Part shown: piece after piece, positions 32,806 through 40,028 of the stretch
Position numbering within the stretch: the stretch's first letter is position 1
Layout of the letters: each line of letters opens with the position of its first letter
Assembly (NCBI RefSeq): GCF_000515315.1
Contig: NZ_KI911562.1
Coordinates: 1,260,505-1,324,504, forward strand
Length of the DNA stretch: 64,000 nt
Reading direction: 5' to 3'
Source of the DNA: Asinibacterium sp. OR53
GTDB taxonomy: Bacteria > Bacteroidota > Bacteroidia > Chitinophagales > Chitinophagaceae
The notes under the pieces: generated by a model
Database searches by the model: none
Told to the model about the DNA's origin: nothing
What the model saw: only the letters and a program-made list of their open reading frames with translations
Position numbers and translations under genes: made by a program

Positions 32806-33297
32806 TTAATGACATTTGAAATAATCGAAAGGCTCCTGGCAGTCGTTGCACTGGTAAAGGGCTTTGCAGGCCGTAGAGCCAAAACGGGAAACCAACCGTG
32901 TATGATAAGAGCCGCAATGCGGACATTGCACAGCTTCTTCTTCCTGGAAAGCGTCGGGCGTGCATACCAGTTGTTTGTGATTGGGGGGCGCTATGCCATA
33001 GGCTTTCAGCTTTTGTTTGCCGCTTTCACTCATCCAATCGGTGGTCCAGGCAGGCGACAATACCTGCTTTACCTGTACCTGTGCAAACCCTTGCTGCAAC
33101 AACGCTATCCGTATGTTCATGCCAATGACGTCCATGGCGGGGCAACCAGAATAGGTAGGCGTGATCACAACTTCCACTTCCTGTTCACTCTTTACATGCA
33201 CTTCCCGCACAATGCCCAGGTCGAGTATGCTCAATACAGGCACTTCAGGGTCGAATATGTTTTCAAACAGTTTCCATATGGTAGCTTCATTTACCAT
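32806..33297 (-). CDS. paaD: 1,2-phenylacetyl-CoA epoxidase subunit PaaD
   Basis: 163 aa from ATG at 33297; the longer in-frame reading would run 150 nt into paaC. A MIP18/DUF59 domain comes first (IFDPEVPVLSILDLGIVREV, TYSGCPAMDVIG). The C-terminal zinc ribbon has CPHCGSYHT and CNDCQEPFD. PaaD is needed for maturation of the PaaABCE di-iron monooxygenase, probably by delivering iron or sulfur. The start codon overlaps the end of paaC by 7 nt, so translation is coupled. Confidence 0.93.
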   Translation of the reverse strand: MVNEATIWKLFENIFDPEVPVLSILDLGIVREVHVKSEQEVEVVITPTYSGCPAMDVIGMNIRIALLQQGFAQVQVKQVLSPAWTTDWMSESGKQKLKAYGIAPPNHKQLVCTPDAFQEEEAVQCPHCGSYHTRLVSRFGSTACKALYQCNDCQEPFDYFKCH

Positions 33298-34031
33298 GTT
33301 GCACCGGGATAGGTTCTTTGCAGGCTTTGCATTTCGGCCAGTATATAACCCAGGTGTTCGGTATGGATGCCTTCTTTGCCGCCTTTTTGCATCCAGCCTT
33401 GCTGAGGCAATGTCAATGTTGCTTCTTCCATGACTTCTGCAACTTTCTGTTGCCACTGCATTTGAACAAGGTTCAGGTCAACACCAAAGCCTGGTGTTTC
33501 GTATGCAGCAGGTACAAAAAGTTCTCCTGTATAAACCCATAAGTTGTCAACTGCATCTTCCATTTTTTGTTTGCTTTCTTCTGTGCCATCGCCCAGGCGG
33601 ATCACCCATTCGCTGCTCCAGCGAAGATGGTAAGTAACTTCTTTCAGCGATTTTTCTGCAATAGCGGCTAGTTGTACATCGGTACTATTGATCAGTTGCT
33701 GGAACAAATAGTATTGATACGTGCTGAAAAAGAATTGACGTAACACGGTTTGTCCCCAATGGCCATTGGGCAATTCCACCAACAGGCAATTCTTGTATGC
33801 TCTTTCATCGCGCAGGTAAGCCAGCGTATCTTCTGTTGCATCACCCCCTTGTATCGATGCGGCATATTGGTACAAGTTGCGTGCCTGCCCAATCAGGTCG
33901 AGCGCAATATTGGTCAATGCAATATCCTGTTCCAGCACCGGTCCGTGACCACACCATTCGCTGTTGCGGTGTCCTAATATCAATGCACTATCGGCCAGGA
34001 ATAAGCAATAATGGAGAAGAGGATCATGCAT
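33291..34031 (-). CDS. paaC: 1,2-phenylacetyl-CoA epoxidase structural subunit PaaC
   Basis: 246 aa, ferritin-like helical subunit. LFLADSALILGHRNSEWCGH, DIALTNIALDLIGQARNLYQ and LKEVTYHLRWSSEWVIRLGD match PaaC. It has lost the full di-iron ligand set and stabilises the catalytic PaaA in the PaaAC heterodimer. It starts 3 nt after paaB stops and overlaps paaD. Cytoplasmic. Confidence 0.94.
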   Translation of the reverse strand: MHDPLLHYCLFLADSALILGHRNSEWCGHGPVLEQDIALTNIALDLIGQARNLYQYAASIQGGDATEDTLAYLRDERAYKNCLLVELPNGHWGQTVLRQFFFSTYQYYLFQQLINSTDVQLAAIAEKSLKEVTYHLRWSSEWVIRLGDGTEESKQKMEDAVDNLWVYTGELFVPAAYETPGFGVDLNLVQMQWQQKVAEVMEEATLTLPQQGWMQKGGKEGIHTEHLGYILAEMQSLQRTYPGATW

Positions 34032-34034
34032 GAT

Positions 34035-34403
34035 CTAAATATGTTTCAGTTCCTGTGGAAGATCGTAAAAAGTAGGATGCCGGTAAGCTTTATCATTCGC
34101 GGGATCGTACAAAGAGGCTGCTTCATCGGGATTGCTTGCATGGATGTATTTGCTTTCCACTACCCATATGCTCACGCCTTCCATCCTGCGGGTATACACA
34201 TCCCTTGCATTCTCAATAGCCATCGCGGCATCGGCTGCGTGCAGACTACCCACATGTTTGTGATCGAGGCCCTGTTTGCTGCGGATGAATATTTCCCATA
34301 AAGGCCATTCATGCTTGTTGTGTTTTCCCGTGGAAACATCGGCAGGTCCCTGTTTCGATTCACCGTAATCGCCGTAATAATATTTCCGGATATATGCTTT
34401 CAT
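34035..34403 (-). CDS. paaB: 1,2-phenylacetyl-CoA epoxidase subunit PaaB
   Basis: 122 aa. The core EWPLWEIFIRSKQGLDHKHV followed by GSLHAADAAMAIENARDVYT and GVSIWVVESKYI is diagnostic. It carries about 30 additional N-terminal residues and a C-terminal tail (YDPANDKAYRHPTFYDLP) relative to the shorter proteobacterial PaaB. PaaB bridges the oxygenase subunits in the complex. Gaps of 8 nt to paaA and 3 nt to paaC show an operon. Confidence 0.94.
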   Translation of the reverse strand: MKAYIRKYYYGDYGESKQGPADVSTGKHNKHEWPLWEIFIRSKQGLDHKHVGSLHAADAAMAIENARDVYTRRMEGVSIWVVESKYIHASNPDEAASLYDPANDKAYRHPTFYDLPQELKHI

Positions 34404-34411
34404 GTAAATGA

Positions 34412-35344
34412 TTAAGCTGCTTGTTGTTTCTTTTTCGATGCATGTGCGGCAGCGGCTTCACGCACCCAGGCGCCCTCTTCCCAGGCTTTCCTGCGGGCAC
34501 TGAGCCTTTCTTTGTTGCAGGGGCCATTGCCCTGTATCACCTGCCAGAACTCATCCCAATTGATAGCACCAAAATCATAATGCCCTTTTGCTTCATTCCA
34601 GCGCAGATCGGGATCGGGCAAACTGAGGTTCAATGTCTTTACCTGTTCTGCGCAGATATCGATGAATTTCTGGCGCAGTTCGTCGTTGCTGAAACGTTTG
34701 ATCTTCCATTTCATACTCAACTGTGAATTGGGACTCTCATCGTCTTTTGGACCAAACATCATGACACTGGGCCACCACCAGCGGTTGACGGCATCCTGTG
34801 CCATCGCGCGTTGCGCTTCGGTACCGCGGCTCAGCGTGAGCAGTATTTCAAAACCCTGTCGTTGGTGAAAACTTTCTTCTTTGCACACACGCACCATGGC
34901 GCGGGCATAAGGCCCGTAACTGCTTCTGCACAAAAGCACCTGGTTCATGATGGCTGCACCGTCTACCAGCCAGCCGATGGCGCCCATATCGGCCCAGGTG
35001 AGGGTAGGGTAATTGAAGATGGAAGAATATTTTGCTTTGCCGCTGTGCAGTTGCTCGTACATTTCATCGCGACTGATACCCAATGTTTCGGCAGCCGAAT
35101 ACAAATAAAGACCATGACCTGCTTCATCCTGTACTTTGGCCAATAAAATGGCTTTGCGGCGCAGGTTGGGTGCACGCGTGATCCAGTTGCCTTCGGGCAG
35201 CATGCCTACGATTTCACTGTGTGCATGCTGACTGATCTGCCGGATCAATGTTTGCCGGTATTTTTCCGGCATCCAGTCGCGCGGCTCGATCCTGATCTCT
35301 TTATCGATCTTATCCTGGAATATCTTTTCAAAATCCTGGTCCAT
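34412..35344 (-). CDS. paaA: 1,2-phenylacetyl-CoA epoxidase catalytic subunit PaaA
   Basis: 310 aa di-iron oxygenase. It carries [40 protein letters not shown] (ExxH ligands), [16 protein letters not shown] (second ligand set) and [15 protein letters not shown]. With PaaBCDE it inserts one oxygen atom of O2 into the ring of phenylacetyl-CoA. First gene of the paaABCD-G-I transcript. The promoter upstream carries a TACCTTTG box (35371-35364) and a palindrome that matches the site at the tetR gene, so repression by that TetR protein is likely. Confidence 0.95.
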
Positions 35345-35363
35345 CCTGAATCTGGTTAGGTAA

Positions 35364-35371
35364 CAAAGGTA
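35364..35371 (-). promoter_or_regulatory. -7 promoter box of paaA
   Basis: On the minus strand TACCTTTG, a full TAnnTTTG match, 20 nt upstream of the paaA start. The -33 position (about 35391-35395) falls inside the operator at 35387-35406, so a bound repressor would block RNA polymerase. Confidence 0.65.
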
Positions 35372-35386
35372 AGAAAAGAAAACGAG

Positions 35387-35406
35387 ATGCTAACGAACGT
35401 TAGCAT
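35387..35406. promoter_or_regulatory. TetR-type operator upstream of paaA
   Basis: ATGCTAACG and CGTTAGCAT form a perfect inverted repeat around AA. The core CTAAC-N4-GTTAG (35390-35403) recurs 18 bp upstream of the tetR start (37802-37815). The site is also 45 bp upstream of the SGNH hydrolase gene on the other strand. Confidence 0.7.
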
Positions 35407-35450
35407 GATAAAAGGAAGTAAGACCATCCCCCTTTCCTTATCTTTCTGCA

Positions 35451-36107
35451 ATGAAAAAATCATTTCTTTTTTTACTGACTTTTTTTTCCGGACTGTTGTT
35501 GACAGCACAAGTTCCTTTCCAGGGAGAGATTAATGCGTTTAAAAAAGCAGACAGTATCAAGGCGCCTTTGCCAGGCAGTATTTTATTTGTAGGTAGTTCC
35601 TCCTTCCGCAAATGGCAGGATGTGCAAGCGTATTTTCCCGGCTATCGTATTATCAACCGGGGCTTTGGAGGTTCTGCATTGCCCGACCTTATTCATTTTG
35701 CACCAGATGTTATCTATGCTTACAAGCCTTCACAAATTGTTATCTATTGTGGCGATAACGACCTGGCCGCATCGGATACGGTAACAGCGCAGATGGTATT
35801 AAAAAGGTTTAAGCAATTGTTTGGTATGATCAGGCATACATTGGGTGAAGTACCCGTAGCGTATGTATCTATCAAACCCAGTCCCAGCCGCTGGCACCTG
35901 GAGCCTGCGATCAGCGCAGCCAATCGTTTGATCGCGCAGTTCATGGCCAAACAACGCAAAGCAACATTTATTGATATTCATCGTCCCATGCTGCGCGAAG
36001 ATGGAATTGTTAACGGCGCATTATTTACCAGCGACAGTTTGCACATGAATGAAAAGGGATACAAGTTATGGCAGGGCATCATCCGGCCTCATTTGAAAAA
36101 AGGATGA
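35451..36107 (+). CDS. SGNH/GDSL-family hydrolase, exported
   Basis: 218 aa. Signal peptide ending LLTAQ. SGNH blocks: ILFVGSSSFRKW (block I serine in the GSSS stretch), GFGGSALPDL (block II Gly), YCGDNDLAASD (block III, GDND in place of GxND) and SDSLHMNEKGYKLW (block V, Asp-x-x-His). This is an ester hydrolase acting on acetylated sugars or lipids in the periplasm. It is transcribed against the paa genes and sits between paaE and paaA, so a shared function is not evident. Its stop abuts the paaE stop. Confidence 0.87.
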   Translation: MKKSFLFLLTFFSGLLLTAQVPFQGEINAFKKADSIKAPLPGSILFVGSSSFRKWQDVQAYFPGYRIINRGFGGSALPDLIHFAPDVIYAYKPSQIVIYCGDNDLAASDTVTAQMVLKRFKQLFGMIRHTLGEVPVAYVSIKPSPSRWHLEPAISAANRLIAQFMAKQRKATFIDIHRPMLREDGIVNGALFTSDSLHMNEKGYKLWQGIIRPHLKKG

Positions 36108-37190
36108 TCACTTGGCATCGAAATCCACTACCAGCCTGGCCGATCTTGGGTGCGACTGGCAGGTAAGAATAAAGCCGCGCGCCAGTTCTTCCGGTTCCAG
36201 TCCGTAGTTAACATCCATGGCTACTTCTCCTTCCACCAGTTTGGCACGGCAGGTGCAACATACACCGCCTTTGCAGGAGTATGGGAGGTCGGCGCCTTGC
36301 TTCAAAGCGGCGTCCAGTATGGCTTCTTCGTCGTAGCCGAGATCGAAATCAAAACTTACGCCATCGAGCCTTACAGTGATCTTACTCTTTGCCTGGCTTT
36401 CTTTCGTGCTTGCTTCCCTGACGGCAACAGTTGTTGACTGACCCGGTGAAGAGAACAATTCAAAATGAATTTTCTTTTTGGCAACACCGGCTTTTTCCAG
36501 TTGTTCTTTCACGGTAAAGATCATGGCTTCCGGACCACAGATAAAAAATTCATCGGTGCTGTATACATCGATTATTTTATCAAAGAGCAGCTTGCATTTT
36601 GCTTCATCGATATGTCCTGCATTGATGGGCGCGTCTGTTTTTTCGCGGGAGAGTATATAAACGATCTGCAAACGATCAATGTATTTGTTTTTTAGTCCTT
36701 CCAGCTCTTCCCTGAAAATAATGGAATGCCTGTTTCGGTTGCCATATATCAATGTGAAGCTGCTGTTGGGCTCAGTGCGCAATACGGTTTTAATGGTGGA
36801 GAACAGGGGCGTAATACCGCTGCCTGCTGCAAAAGCAACGTATTGTTTATGATGCGTAGGATGCAGTTCGGTAAAGAAATTACCCATGGGAGGCATCAAT
36901 TCCAGCACATCGCCCACTTTTAATTGTTCATTGGCGAAAGCGGAAAACAGGCCCTGGTCTATCTTCTTCACTGCAATGCGAAACTCATCACAGTCAAGCG
37001 GAGAGCTGCAAAGCGAATAAGAACGACGGAGTTCCTGTCCGTTCACGAATGCACGCAACGTGATATGCTGCCCTTGCTTGTATTGAAAAATAGGTTTTAA
37101 AGGATCGGGAATATCAAAACGGATGGAAACACAATCATTCGTTTCTTTCCTGATTTCCTTTACTGCTAACGGGTGAAAATGGGATGACAT
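36108..37190 (-). CDS. paaE: 1,2-phenylacetyl-CoA epoxidase reductase PaaE
   Basis: 360 aa. FAD-binding ferredoxin reductase domain (RRSYSLCSSP), NAD(P)-binding domain (FAAGSGITPLFSTIK; FICGPEAMIF) and a C-terminal plant-type [2Fe-2S] domain (CKGGVCCTCRAKLVEG with the fourth Cys in LTCQSHP). It passes electrons from NADPH to the PaaAC di-iron centre. The ATG begins in the base after the tetR stop codon, so tetR and paaE are one transcript, separated from paaABCD by an inverted gene. Confidence 0.94.
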   Translation of the reverse strand: MSSHFHPLAVKEIRKETNDCVSIRFDIPDPLKPIFQYKQGQHITLRAFVNGQELRRSYSLCSSPLDCDEFRIAVKKIDQGLFSAFANEQLKVGDVLELMPPMGNFFTELHPTHHKQYVAFAAGSGITPLFSTIKTVLRTEPNSSFTLIYGNRNRHSIIFREELEGLKNKYIDRLQIVYILSREKTDAPINAGHIDEAKCKLLFDKIIDVYSTDEFFICGPEAMIFTVKEQLEKAGVAKKKIHFELFSSPGQSTTVAVREASTKESQAKSKITVRLDGVSFDFDLGYDEEAILDAALKQGADLPYSCKGGVCCTCRAKLVEGEVAMDVNYGLEPEELARGFILTCQSHPRSARLVVDFDAK

Positions 37191-37784
37191 TTATTTATTC
37201 GTTAATCCACCTACCAGTATGGTGATCATGTTCTCTTCCAGCTCTTCTGCACTGATCCTTTGTTTGGAGCGGTGCCAGCTTTCAATGCCGCTCACTGCGT
37301 GCAACATGATGAGTACGGCGGTAGGTGCGTCTATTTTTTTGATCTCTTTATTGCGAATGCCTGCTTCGATGATGGAGGCAAATCGTTTGCGGTAGATACG
37401 GCGCTGGTTCTGGTAATTCGAGAGATAGGGATCGGCCAGGTGCTTCCACTCACGATCGCTTACATAAACTTCTTCGTAATGATGCACCATTTCATCGATG
37501 TGAAAGCGCATCAGCTTTTCAATTTTCTCTATGGCGGTGATCTTTTCTGCTTCCACTTCGTCTATGTGATGCATAAAACGGTTGGCGACACTAAAGCATA
37601 ATTCGTGCAGTAATTCGGTTTTGGATTTGATGTGGTTGTACAGGCTGGCTGCTTCCACACCTACTGCTTCGGCAAGATCGCGCATGCTGGCAGCTTTGAA
37701 ACCTTTCTCCCTGAAAAGAGCAGCAGCTTTGGTAACGATCACCTCTTTACGGGATACATTTTTTTCTGTTTTTATCCTGGCCAT
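37191..37784 (-). CDS. TetR/AcrR family regulator of the paa genes (PaaR-like)
   Basis: 197 aa. The N-terminal HTH reads VIVTKAAALFREKGFKAASM and DLAEAVGVEAASLYNHIKSK; the ligand domain follows with the HIDEVEAEK helix. The TetR_C-like C-terminal half probably binds phenylacetyl-CoA or a later intermediate. The gene leads the paaE transcript and has a CTAAC-N4-GTTAG palindrome just upstream, the same as at paaA, so it should repress itself, paaE and paaABCD-G-I until the pathway intermediate appears. The ligand is inferred from known phenylacetate regulation. Confidence 0.87.
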   Translation of the reverse strand: MARIKTEKNVSRKEVIVTKAAALFREKGFKAASMRDLAEAVGVEAASLYNHIKSKTELLHELCFSVANRFMHHIDEVEAEKITAIEKIEKLMRFHIDEMVHHYEEVYVSDREWKHLADPYLSNYQNQRRIYRKRFASIIEAGIRNKEIKKIDAPTAVLIMLHAVSGIESWHRSKQRISAEELEENMITILVGGLTNK

Positions 37785-37912: not shown

Positions 37913-38833
37913 ATGTCATTAGTTGTTGTCGGATCCATGGCTTTCGATGCCATTGAAACCCCTTTCGGGAAAAGTGATAAGATCATTGGCGGAGCGGGCA
38001 CATATATCGCCTGGTGCGCTTCCAACTTCACCCCGGTTAAACAGGTATCTGTAGTAGGCGGCGATTTCCCGCAGTCGGAACTGGATGCGCTTACTGCCAG
38101 GGGCGTTACCCTGGAAGGGGTGCAGGTGAAAAAGGACGAAAAGACCTTTTTTTGGAGCGGCCGCTACCACATGGATATGAACACCCGCGACACACTGGAT
38201 ACTCAGTTGAACGTGCTGGCCAATTTTGAGCCGGTGGTGCCTGAAAGCTACCAGGACTGCGAGTTCCTGATGCTGGGCAACCTGCTTCCGTCGGTACAAC
38301 GCAGTGTGATAGAGCAATTGAAGACCCGCCCGAAACTCATCGTTATGGATACCATGAATTTCTGGATGGAAGTAGCGATGGATGAATTGAAGAAGACCCT
38401 GGCCATGGTGGATGTATTGATGGTGAATGACAGTGAAGCCCGTCAGTTGAGCGGTGAATTTTCATTGGTGAAAGCTGCAGCGGTTATTGAAAAAATGGGT
38501 CCCCGCTTTGTGATCATCAAAAAGGGAGAACACGGCGCGCTGCTGTTCCATGAGAACAAAGTATTCTTTGCTCCCGCCCTGCCCCTGGAAGACGTGTTCG
38601 ACCCCACCGGAGCCGGCGATACTTTTGCCGGAGGCTTTATCGGCCACCTGGCCAAAACCCGCGATATTTCTTTTGAGAACATGAAAACAGCCATCATCCT
38701 GGGTAGCGCTATGGCTTCATTCTGCGTAGAGAAATTCGGTACGCAACGCCTGCGCGAGATCGGCAAAAGCGATATCGATGCACGCCTGGAACAGTTTGTG
38801 CAACTGGTGAATTTTGACATTGATTTGGTTTAA
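37913..38833 (+). CDS. PfkB-family carbohydrate/nucleoside kinase
   Basis: 306 aa ribokinase fold. The N-terminal GGAGTYIAWCAS stretch binds substrate; the C-terminal PfkB signature reads DPTGAGDTFAGGFIGHLA with the catalytic Asp in GAGD. It transfers phosphate from ATP to a sugar or nucleoside in the cytoplasm. The substrate cannot be told; the NAD(P)H-repair and asd neighbours give no clue. The stop codon overlaps the promoter of the asd leader region. Confidence 0.87.
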   Translation: MSLVVVGSMAFDAIETPFGKSDKIIGGAGTYIAWCASNFTPVKQVSVVGGDFPQSELDALTARGVTLEGVQVKKDEKTFFWSGRYHMDMNTRDTLDTQLNVLANFEPVVPESYQDCEFLMLGNLLPSVQRSVIEQLKTRPKLIVMDTMNFWMEVAMDELKKTLAMVDVLMVNDSEARQLSGEFSLVKAAAVIEKMGPRFVIIKKGEHGALLFHENKVFFAPALPLEDVFDPTGAGDTFAGGFIGHLAKTRDISFENMKTAIILGSAMASFCVEKFGTQRLREIGKSDIDARLEQFVQLVNFDIDLV

Positions 38834-38856
38834 TAACAGATTTACCCCTATCTTCG
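38824..38856 (+). promoter_or_regulatory. promoter of the asd leader
   Basis: TTTG (38824-38827), 21 nt, then TATCTTCG (38849-38856), one mismatch from TAnnTTTG. It overlaps the last codons of the kinase gene. Transcription would start near 38860-38864, at or just before the leader-peptide ATG. Confidence 0.5.
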
Positions 38857-38863
38857 CCGGGCA

Positions 38864-38908
38864 ATGATGAACATGAAACATACAAAACGTATTAAGAAAC
38901 CTCTCTGA
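38864..38908 (+). CDS. 14-residue leader peptide of asd (candidate attenuator)
   Basis: ATG to TGA encodes MMNMKHTKRIKKPL. Nine of the 14 residues after counting Met, Asn, Lys, Thr and Ile are amino acids of the aspartate family (three Met, one Asn, four Lys, one Thr, one Ile, so ten with the initiator). asd, directly downstream, makes their common precursor. The stop codon lies one base before the antiterminator arm. Ribosome stalling at Met or Lys codons would leave that arm free, and completion of the peptide would cover it. Too short to prove as a translated gene from one sequence. Confidence 0.55.
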   Translation: MMNMKHTKRIKKPL

Positions 38909-38909
38909 C

Positions 38910-38986
38910 GGGAAGGTGCCTGATCGTTTGTGTATGACAAAATATACTCAGAGGCCTTCCCAAACAGGAAGGCCTCTTTCTTTTTA
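38910..38986 (+). promoter_or_regulatory. antiterminator/terminator switch upstream of asd
   Basis: Terminator: AGAGGCCTTCC (38950-38960) pairs perfectly with GGAAGGCCTCT (38967-38977) over a CAAACA loop, followed by TTCTTTTT. Antiterminator: GGGAAGG (38910-38916) pairs with CCTTCCC (38955-38961) and, after a two-base bulge, CCT (38919-38921) with AGG (38952-38954). Both structures need 38952-38960, so they exclude each other. A weak hairpin of CCTCTC (38900-38905) with the same GGGAAGG could sequester the antiterminator. Confidence 0.65.
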
Positions 38987-39000
38987 ATCAACCTCAAAAA

Positions 39001-39018
39001 AAGGGATACGTAACCCTT
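39001..39018. repeat. 18-bp near-palindrome between attenuator and asd
   Basis: AAGGG-A-TACGTA-A-CCCTT: all positions are self-complementary except one A-A pair. It ends 17 bp before the asd start. It may be a protein-binding site or a small hairpin near the ribosome-loading region. Confidence 0.4.
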
Positions 39019-39035
39019 AAAAAAGCGTAGACAAA

Positions 39036-40028
39036 ATGAAAGTAGCTGTTGTAGGTGCAACCGGACTGGTAGGCACCAAAATGTTGCAGGTGCTGGCCGA
39101 ACGCAACTTCCCCGTAACAGAATTGGTTCCTGTAGCATCTGAAAGATCAGTAGGTAAGGAAGTAGAATTCAAAGGGAAAAAATACAAAGTGGTGAGCATG
39201 GCCGATGGTATCGCCGCCAAGCCCGCTGTAGCTATTTTCTCTGCCGGTGGAAGCACATCCCTGGAATGGGCGCCCAAATTTGCCGAAGCAGGTATCCGCG
39301 TGATCGATAACTCTTCTGCATGGCGTATGGACCCCACCAAAAAACTGGTGGTGCCTGAAGTAAATGCATCGGTGCTCACCGGCAACGATTACATCATTGC
39401 CAATCCCAACTGCTCTACCATACAAATGGTGGTGGCCTTGCAGCCGCTGCATGCCCGTTATAAAATTAAAAGGGTAGTGGTAAGTACTTACCAGAGTGTT
39501 ACCGGTACCGGCAAAAAAGCGGTTGATCAGTTGTTCAATGAAAGAAAAGGTGTGAAAGGCGATATGGCTTATAAATACCAGATCGACCTCAATGTGATTC
39601 CGCAGATTGATGTGTTTCTCGACAACGGTTATACCAAAGAAGAAATGAAAATGGTGAACGAGACCAAGAAGATCATGCAGGACGATTCGATACGTGTAAC
39701 GGCTACAACCGTACGTATTCCGGTTGTGGGCGGGCACAGCGAAAGCGTGAATGTGGAGTTTGAAAATGATTTTGACCTGAATGAAGTACAGCAATTGCTG
39801 AGCGCCGCACCGGGTGTGATCGTAGAGAACAACGATGCAGAACTCCTGTATCCCATGCCTTTGAATGCACACGAGCGCGATGAAGTGTTTGTAGGAAGAC
39901 TGCGCAGGGATGAAACACAACCCAAAACCCTGAACATGTGGATCGTGAGCGATAACCTGCGCAAAGGCGCTGCTACCAATGCCGTGCAGATCGCAGAATA
40001 TCTCCTGAGTAAATCGATCTTATCATAA
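39036..40028 (+). CDS. asd: aspartate-semialdehyde dehydrogenase
   Basis: 330 aa. N-terminal Rossmann motif VAVVGATGLVGTKMLQVL; active-site cysteine in NPNCSTIQMVVAL; the catalytic histidine region VVGGHSESVNVEF; and VSTYQSVTGTGKKAV near it. It reduces aspartyl-4-phosphate to aspartate-4-semialdehyde with NADPH, the branch point to lysine/diaminopimelate, threonine, methionine and isoleucine. It stands alone between a probable attenuator and a terminator, so it is a single-gene transcript. Cytoplasmic. Confidence 0.96.
   Translation: MKVAVVGATGLVGTKMLQVLAERNFPVTELVPVASERSVGKEVEFKGKKYKVVSMADGIAAKPAVAIFSAGGSTSLEWAPKFAEAGIRVIDNSSAWRMDPTKKLVVPEVNASVLTGNDYIIANPNCSTIQMVVALQPLHARYKIKRVVVSTYQSVTGTGKKAVDQLFNERKGVKGDMAYKYQIDLNVIPQIDVFLDNGYTKEEMKMVNETKKIMQDDSIRVTATTVRIPVVGGHSESVNVEFENDFDLNEVQQLLSAAPGVIVENNDAELLYPMPLNAHERDEVFVGRLRRDETQPKTLNMWIVSDNLRKGAATNAVQIAEYLLSKSILS

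Follow-up and report, generated by a model that had tools for sequence, protein, structure and literature searches.

A predicted lysine-codon transcription attenuator in front of asd in Asinibacterium and related Bacteroidota

Introduction

In Asinibacterium sp. OR53 a short open reading frame and a series of overlapping inverted repeats stand between a sugar-kinase-like (pfkB family) gene and asd, and the question that the locus raises is which amino acid, if any, such a leader would sense. The locus is part of a 64,000-nucleotide stretch of DNA, which is termed the window here. A sequence-only reading of the window had taken the leader for an attenuator that senses several aspartate-family amino acids, with charged tRNA-Lys and tRNA-Met as the signals. 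The comparative analysis described below leads to a narrower proposal. From sequence, asd, and in some relatives also dapA, is predicted to be governed by a ribosome-mediated transcription attenuator that very probably senses charged tRNA-Lys.

The leader upstream of asd

The features of the locus are collected in Table 1. The 14-codon open reading frame described earlier is borne out by direct reading of the sequence (ATG at 38864, TGA at 38906-38908), as is its composition, with Met, Asn, Lys, Thr or Ile at 10 of the 14 residues. The single base said to separate the TGA from the antiterminator arm is also there, the arm (GGGAAGG, segment 2 below) starting at 38910. The downstream gene was identified as asd with a score of 443.8 bits against an NCBIfam cut-off of 223.

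Table 1. Features of the asd leader region, in positions of the window
Feature	Position	Strand	Details and basis
Putative promoter	38824..38856	+	TTTG 38824-38827, 21 nt, TATCTTCG 38849-38856
Leader ORF MMNMKHTKRIKKPL	38864..38908	+	sequence; Lys columns kept in relatives
Helix 1:2 (protector)	38879..38936	+	38879-38889 with 38925-38936; computed pairs; covariation
Tandem control Lys codons AAG AAA	38894..38899	+	Lys columns kept in relatives; third base most variable
Antiterminator helix 2:3	38910..38961	+	38910-38916 with 38955-38961, 38920-38923 with 38948-38951; 7-bp part covaries
Intrinsic terminator helix 3:4 and U-run	38950..38985	+	38950-38960 with 38967-38977, loop 6, then TTTCTTTTT; terminator scan; covariation
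asd, aspartate-semialdehyde dehydrogenase, putative regulated gene	39036..40028	+	ORF; NCBIfam NF011456 and TIGR01296 above cut-off

The promoter-like pair noted earlier is of the Bacteroidota type, but a generic sigma-70 scan found no promoter upstream of the asd leader. The Bacteroidota promoter consensus is TTTG / TAnnTTTG, and the second box of the pair matches five of the six fixed bases of TAnnTTTG. The putative promoter overlaps the 3′ end of the preceding sugar-kinase-like gene, upstream of which, at 33291-37784, lies what we take from the translations to be a phenylacetate-degradation-like cluster with a TetR-like regulator.

A second in-frame stop, absent from the earlier description, is found at 38919-38921, where the frame continues past the first stop as R-E-G-A-stop. 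A further open reading frame in the loop of helix 2:3 (ATG 38934) was considered and rejected, as no conservation was seen by eye among the asd upstream sequences of relatives.

Distribution and target genes

Of 80 asd loci obtained in one scan, 22 have a leader, an arm and a terminator upstream. Many of the 22 are titled Chitinophagaceae, Chitinophagales or a member genus, and others merely Bacteroidetes or Bacteroidota. By eye, no leader was found in the remaining 58 loci, which include Sphingobacteriaceae, Cytophagia and Flavobacteriia as well as loci titled Chitinophaga or Sediminibacterium (L013, L032, L043, L054); terminators do precede asd in some of the Flavobacteriia loci, with no Lys leader seen by eye. 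A covariance model (R1) built from 23 leaders, those of the 22 loci plus the window, gave a best match of E = 0.16 on the same 58 loci.

Within the Chitinophagaceae, R1 matches 232 of 394 genomes (213 once and 19 twice) and finds no match in the other 162. The matches cover 209 of 331 good-quality genomes and 69 of 101 genera. One leader of the initial scan, from Niastella yeongjuensis (L014), is identical to a Chitinophagaceae leader (L153). In all, 144 leaders including that of the window were collected, 135 of them distinct; most of them were either detected by a model trained on such leaders or picked from among its best listed matches, which biases the set toward conservation. Among the 135 distinct leaders, mostly best listed matches, the downstream gene is asd in 128, dapA in five and hisG in one (L144, with the leader MKQFTHIHHHHTFP), and one leader stands at a contig end; the gene names were assigned by NCBIfam on representatives.

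The 19 genomes that R1 matches twice include 17 in which one copy precedes dapA. Of the other two, G322 has both copies before asd, and the second match in G264 (L261) is due to chance. The dapA gene encodes the enzyme that opens the lysine branch and serves lysine only; its presence among the targets is the strongest single pointer to lysine. In Asinibacterium itself no such leader was seen by eye before dapA, and the asd leader is the only R1 match genome-wide.

In class-level scans of 247 and then 395 genomes, R1 and R2 match 17 and 25. An asd leader was found outside the Chitinophagaceae in 14 genomes of four families (f22, f42, f38, f29); other matches outside the family are a hisG leader (G474), a weak match in G605, and weak matches due to chance. 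The weak class-level matches L229, L231, L232, L233 and L236, together with L261, were rejected by eye as terminators of other genes or coding sequence. In L226, from another family, the Lys run is out of frame by eye.

Three alternative helices and their covariation

The 129-nt leader at 38862-38990 folds with z = -5.6, and none of 200 shuffled sequences folds equally well. The 11-bp terminator with its U-run, reported earlier, stands. The antiterminator is likewise present, with a computed pairing of 7 + 4 bp in place of the 7 + 3 bp first described, and in the window a leader transcript ending before segment 4 folds into it. Helix 1:2, which had been overlooked, pairs the leader codons with sequence downstream of the arm and completes the classical three-helix design.

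Covariation was assessed in 100 of the 135 distinct leaders with five measures and 500 shuffles, which ignore relatedness. On every one of the five measures, helices 1:2 and 3:4 score above each of the 500 shuffles. For helix 2:3 this is true of three measures, with 18 cells carrying two-sided changes against 6.2 expected; on the other two measures 160 and 102 of the 500 shuffles are as high, the first figure referring to the number of pairs with two-sided changes, which is four. Covariation scores fall for all three helices when the pairing is slid, although helices 2:3 and 3:4 keep nearly as many paired cells when slid by +1, and helix 2:3 slid by -1 has five pairs with two-sided changes against four unslid. 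By eye, changes in the arm propagate through all three segments. Leaders of other families, and also L106 and L110, have GGAAAGG/CCTTTCC with a matching terminator in place of GGAAGG/CCTTCC, and L006 pairs GGGGCT with GGCCCC.

Directly before the terminator, the window (38938-38949) and many relatives have by eye a short run rich in A and U, frequently ATAAC or ATATAAC.

Codon conservation

Codons were counted in 131 of the 135 distinct leaders. Four were set aside: the hisG leader L144; L182, which has no ATG start and would yield a leader with tandem Lys from a GTG; L198, for which the wrong open reading frame had been taken; and L089, for which the wrong arm had been taken. The last two both carry a Lys leader by eye. 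The dapA leaders that came from the follow-up of two-match genomes are outside these counts.

In these 131 leaders, mostly best listed matches, Lys makes up 26.6% of residues in frame and 8.3% and 11.2% in the two other frames. Four alignment columns are occupied by Lys in 115/130, 113/130, 121/131 and 124/131 leaders. At the tandem control pair, at least one Lys is present in all 125 asd leaders and all five dapA leaders, and both are present in 108 of the 125 and in all five. The pair sits outside all three helices. Its codons have entropies of 0.06 bits at base 1, 0.31-0.33 at base 2 and 0.75-0.81 at base 3, drift at the third base with the first two nearly constant being as expected from selection on the amino acid. 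The third-base changes are A/G swaps (first control codon AAG in 109 leaders and AAA in 12, second AAA in 95 and AAG in 29); each position nonetheless retains a favoured codon.

Across families it is Lys codons that persist. Among nine distinct leaders from outside the Chitinophagaceae in the main set, seven have Lys-Lys just before the arm, and the two others have Met-Lys (L016) and Asn-Lys (L143); apart from this, these leaders have little sequence in common, as MMIKKIKCAKKLFR and MNISCMKRKMKKPLL illustrate. Eleven further dapA leaders were translated: at the control position seven have Lys-Lys and four have Lys-Thr (L251, L252, L253, L255), and these four lower the confidence in a Lys attenuator slightly.

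Conservation across families and the dapA leaders thus support the lysine part of the earlier proposal. Methionine fares differently: the column that precedes the first conserved Lys holds Met in 46 of 131 leaders, and none of the five dapA leaders has it there. When the 5′ regions of asd in relatives are aligned, as the sequence-only reading had suggested, Lys codons are kept, helix 3:4 covaries and helix 2:3 covaries on three of five measures, but Met codons are not kept.

A box of the form TAnnTTnG lies within 24 nt before the leader start in 111 of the 131 leaders. In 110 of these 111 it is, like a -7 box, 6-10 nt from the leader ATG (38849-38864 in the window), a spacing that suggests near-leaderless translation of the leader. 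The leader stop falls in two places, either 9-12 nt from the start of the second control Lys codon (43/131) or 21-30 nt from it, into the arm (88/131). The window has an in-frame stop at both (38906-38921), its second stop being at the position of the one used in the 88 leaders. A stop one base before the arm is thus true of the window and is not general among the 131.

Proposed mechanism and its geometry

The proposed mechanism would run as follows. Transcription would start a few bases upstream of the leader ATG. With ample Lys-tRNA the ribosome would pass the tandem Lys codons and, at the stop, cover segment 2, so that terminator 3:4 would form and asd would be off. With Lys-tRNA scarce, a ribosome stalled at the Lys codons would open helix 1:2 and leave segment 2 free; helix 2:3 could then form ahead of the synthesis of segment 4, and RNA polymerase would read into asd. 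If the leader is not translated, helix 1:2, made first, would hold segment 2, with termination as the default. Competition between antiterminator and terminator, and masking of the arm by a terminating ribosome, had been put forward for this locus before, and both that scheme and its classification as a leader-peptide transcription attenuator of asd are supported here.

The first control Lys codon starts 13-21 nt before segment 2. If the edge of the ribosome is taken to lie 15 nt past the first P-site base, a stall that places the second Lys codon in the A site exposes all of segment 2 in 107 of 131 leaders, and one that places the first there exposes it in all 131; at the stop, the ribosome hides 7 nt or more of the segment in every one of the 131. 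Masked folding before segment 4 gives the antiterminator in 130 of 131 leaders with a stall at the second Lys codon and in none of the 131 at the stop. At full length and with the same stall the terminator wins in 106 leaders and the antiterminator in 25, so that read-through would have to be kinetic. When the ribosome is instead stalled at an earlier codon, up to 56 of 131 full-length leaders adopt the antiterminator, against 25 for the second Lys codon; full-length minimum-energy folding does not discriminate between codons and was rejected as a test of the control codon.

For the window, helix energies are -7.1 (1:2), -14.3 (2:3) and -21.0 (3:4) kcal/mol. Of seven states folded, just one yields the antiterminator in the full-length transcript, that with the ribosome stalled at the second Lys codon. 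When the transcript is cut before segment 4 and no ribosome is present, equilibrium favours the antiterminator, and default termination would therefore also depend on folding order. The locus combines a short Lys-rich open reading frame, an intrinsic terminator, an antiterminator that excludes it and a protector helix over the codons; the freeing of segment 2 by a stall and its masking at the stop are predicted from geometry and constrained folding.

Other leaders in the same genome

The hisG gene of Asinibacterium (L215, C1:3581400-3582700) is preceded by the leader MKLFAHIHHHHYLPKG, an arm GGGTAGGCT and a matching 9-bp hairpin, a layout that by eye resembles that of the asd leader. The U-run of this hairpin is weak, and the hairpin escaped the terminator script. 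The gene for aspartokinase-homoserine dehydrogenase (L216, C1:701000-704200), whose aspartokinase part is presumed, is preceded by a Thr/Ile-rich open reading frame, MNLKQSNIHLSAQTGLLFVTAIITIITTL, that ends in TAIITIITTL and is likely a Thr/Ile attenuator leader. Within one genome there are thus His codons before hisG, Thr/Ile codons before the thr gene and Lys codons before asd, which points to a Lys-specific sensor at asd rather than one for Lys and Met.

Alternative explanations

A sensor of several aspartate-family amino acids, Lys plus Thr, Ile and/or Met, has several observations on its side. The asd gene feeds all aspartate-family products, Thr and Met included, which a Lys leader would not sense, and this counts against a lysine-only reading. 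One column has Thr in 108 of 131 leaders, and another has Thr or Ile in 102 of 131; a ribosome halted at any codon as far as the tandem Lys pair would free segment 2; and Thr takes the second control place in the four dapA leaders mentioned above. On the other hand, Thr at 12.4% in frame hardly exceeds the 11.4% of one off frame (it is below 6.2% in the other), and the conserved Thr codon of the Chitinophagaceae, mostly ACA, lies within helix 1:2. This Thr is absent from most leaders of other families and from three dapA leaders of g25 (IKKYSSKKNIS), whereas Lys is kept before dapA, which serves lysine alone, and the thr gene of Asinibacterium already has a Thr/Ile-rich leader frame of its own. 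With Lys as the codon kept across families, sensing of several amino acids is considered unlikely.

The remaining explanations do without codon-specific control of asd or make it secondary. Because the leader of the window directly follows the sugar-kinase-like gene, the hairpin might be merely the terminator of that gene and the open reading frame a product of chance. The kinase gene is upstream in seven of the 22 leader loci; none was seen in the other 15 (for L018 in 380 nt of upstream sequence only), and two loci, L011 and L013, have the kinase beside asd yet lack the leader. Since the leader occurs without the kinase gene, synteny rejects this reading, which would also leave codon conservation and helices 1:2 and 2:3 unexplained; it is given next to no credence. 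A short frame encoding a basic peptide would also suit nascent-peptide arrest or an antibiotic-type sensor. However, the peptides differ widely between families at residues other than Lys, they end at different places and in different sequences, and a similar layout with a His run stands before hisG in the same genome, all of which make arrest by the peptide exceedingly improbable. Termination would yield an RNA of about 120 nt, and this RNA might act in trans as a small RNA, or the peptide itself might have a function, attenuation being secondary; the attenuator leader RNA rnTrpL of Sinorhizobium has such a dual use. Conservation in the present set fits control in cis, with 133 of the 135 distinct leaders before asd or dapA, and a trans-acting product as the main function is judged highly improbable.

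Relation to known systems

The lysine-sensing attenuator proposed here resembles the his, thr, trp and phe attenuators of Proteobacteria in having a short open reading frame with control codons, helices 1:2, 2:3 and 3:4, an intrinsic terminator and a biosynthetic gene downstream. It differs in its control codon, Lys, and in its targets, asd and dapA, and it falls outside the corresponding Rfam families, the top sub-threshold match being Phe_leader RF01859 at 29.7 bits against a gathering cut-off of 55. Attenuator-like sequences were reportedly described in 1987 before asd of Streptococcus mutans, near the same gene in another phylum, and these may be similar in kind. The lysine riboswitch (L-box, RF00168) also responds to lysine at lysine-pathway genes, but by binding it directly. 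A search of the window with Rfam found no lysine riboswitch RF00168, T-box riboswitch or asd RNA motif RF01732.

The asd RNA motif, from Lactobacillales, is also located near asd, in a different phylum (PMC2864571). RNA control before amino-acid genes of Bacteroidota is represented by Bacteroid-trp RF01692 (PMC2864571) and by Flavobacterium psychrophilum, where signs of leader-peptide attenuation were described, with pheA and hisG among the genes named as carrying conserved elements, so that leader-peptide attenuation is already known in Bacteroidota (PMC9723704). The main text of the latter report contains neither 'asd' nor 'lysine', and its supplementary table of 64 elements may list asd (PMC9723704). 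Attenuator specificities as given in 2013 are His, Leu, Thr and Trp, plus Ile/Val and Phe, a list without lysine (PMC3766115). Searches of the open-access literature turned up no description of a leader-peptide attenuator for lysine, nor of this element upstream of asd or dapA in Bacteroidota. Leader-peptide attenuation is thus a known kind of control, and it is most likely the lysine specificity that is new. It appears somewhat probable that the leaders form an undescribed class of lysine-codon attenuators, present in several families of Bacteroidia, placed before asd and in some genera dapA, with a near-leaderless leader frame and with lysine alone gating a step shared by the aspartate family.

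If the prediction holds, lysine would join the few amino acids known to be sensed by leader-peptide attenuation, and a single genome would use one attenuator design with different control codons, His at hisG and Lys at asd. The model and its controls are ready for testing lysine attenuation. The finding suggests how Bacteroidota may set the supply of lysine and diaminopimelate without a lysine riboswitch at asd.
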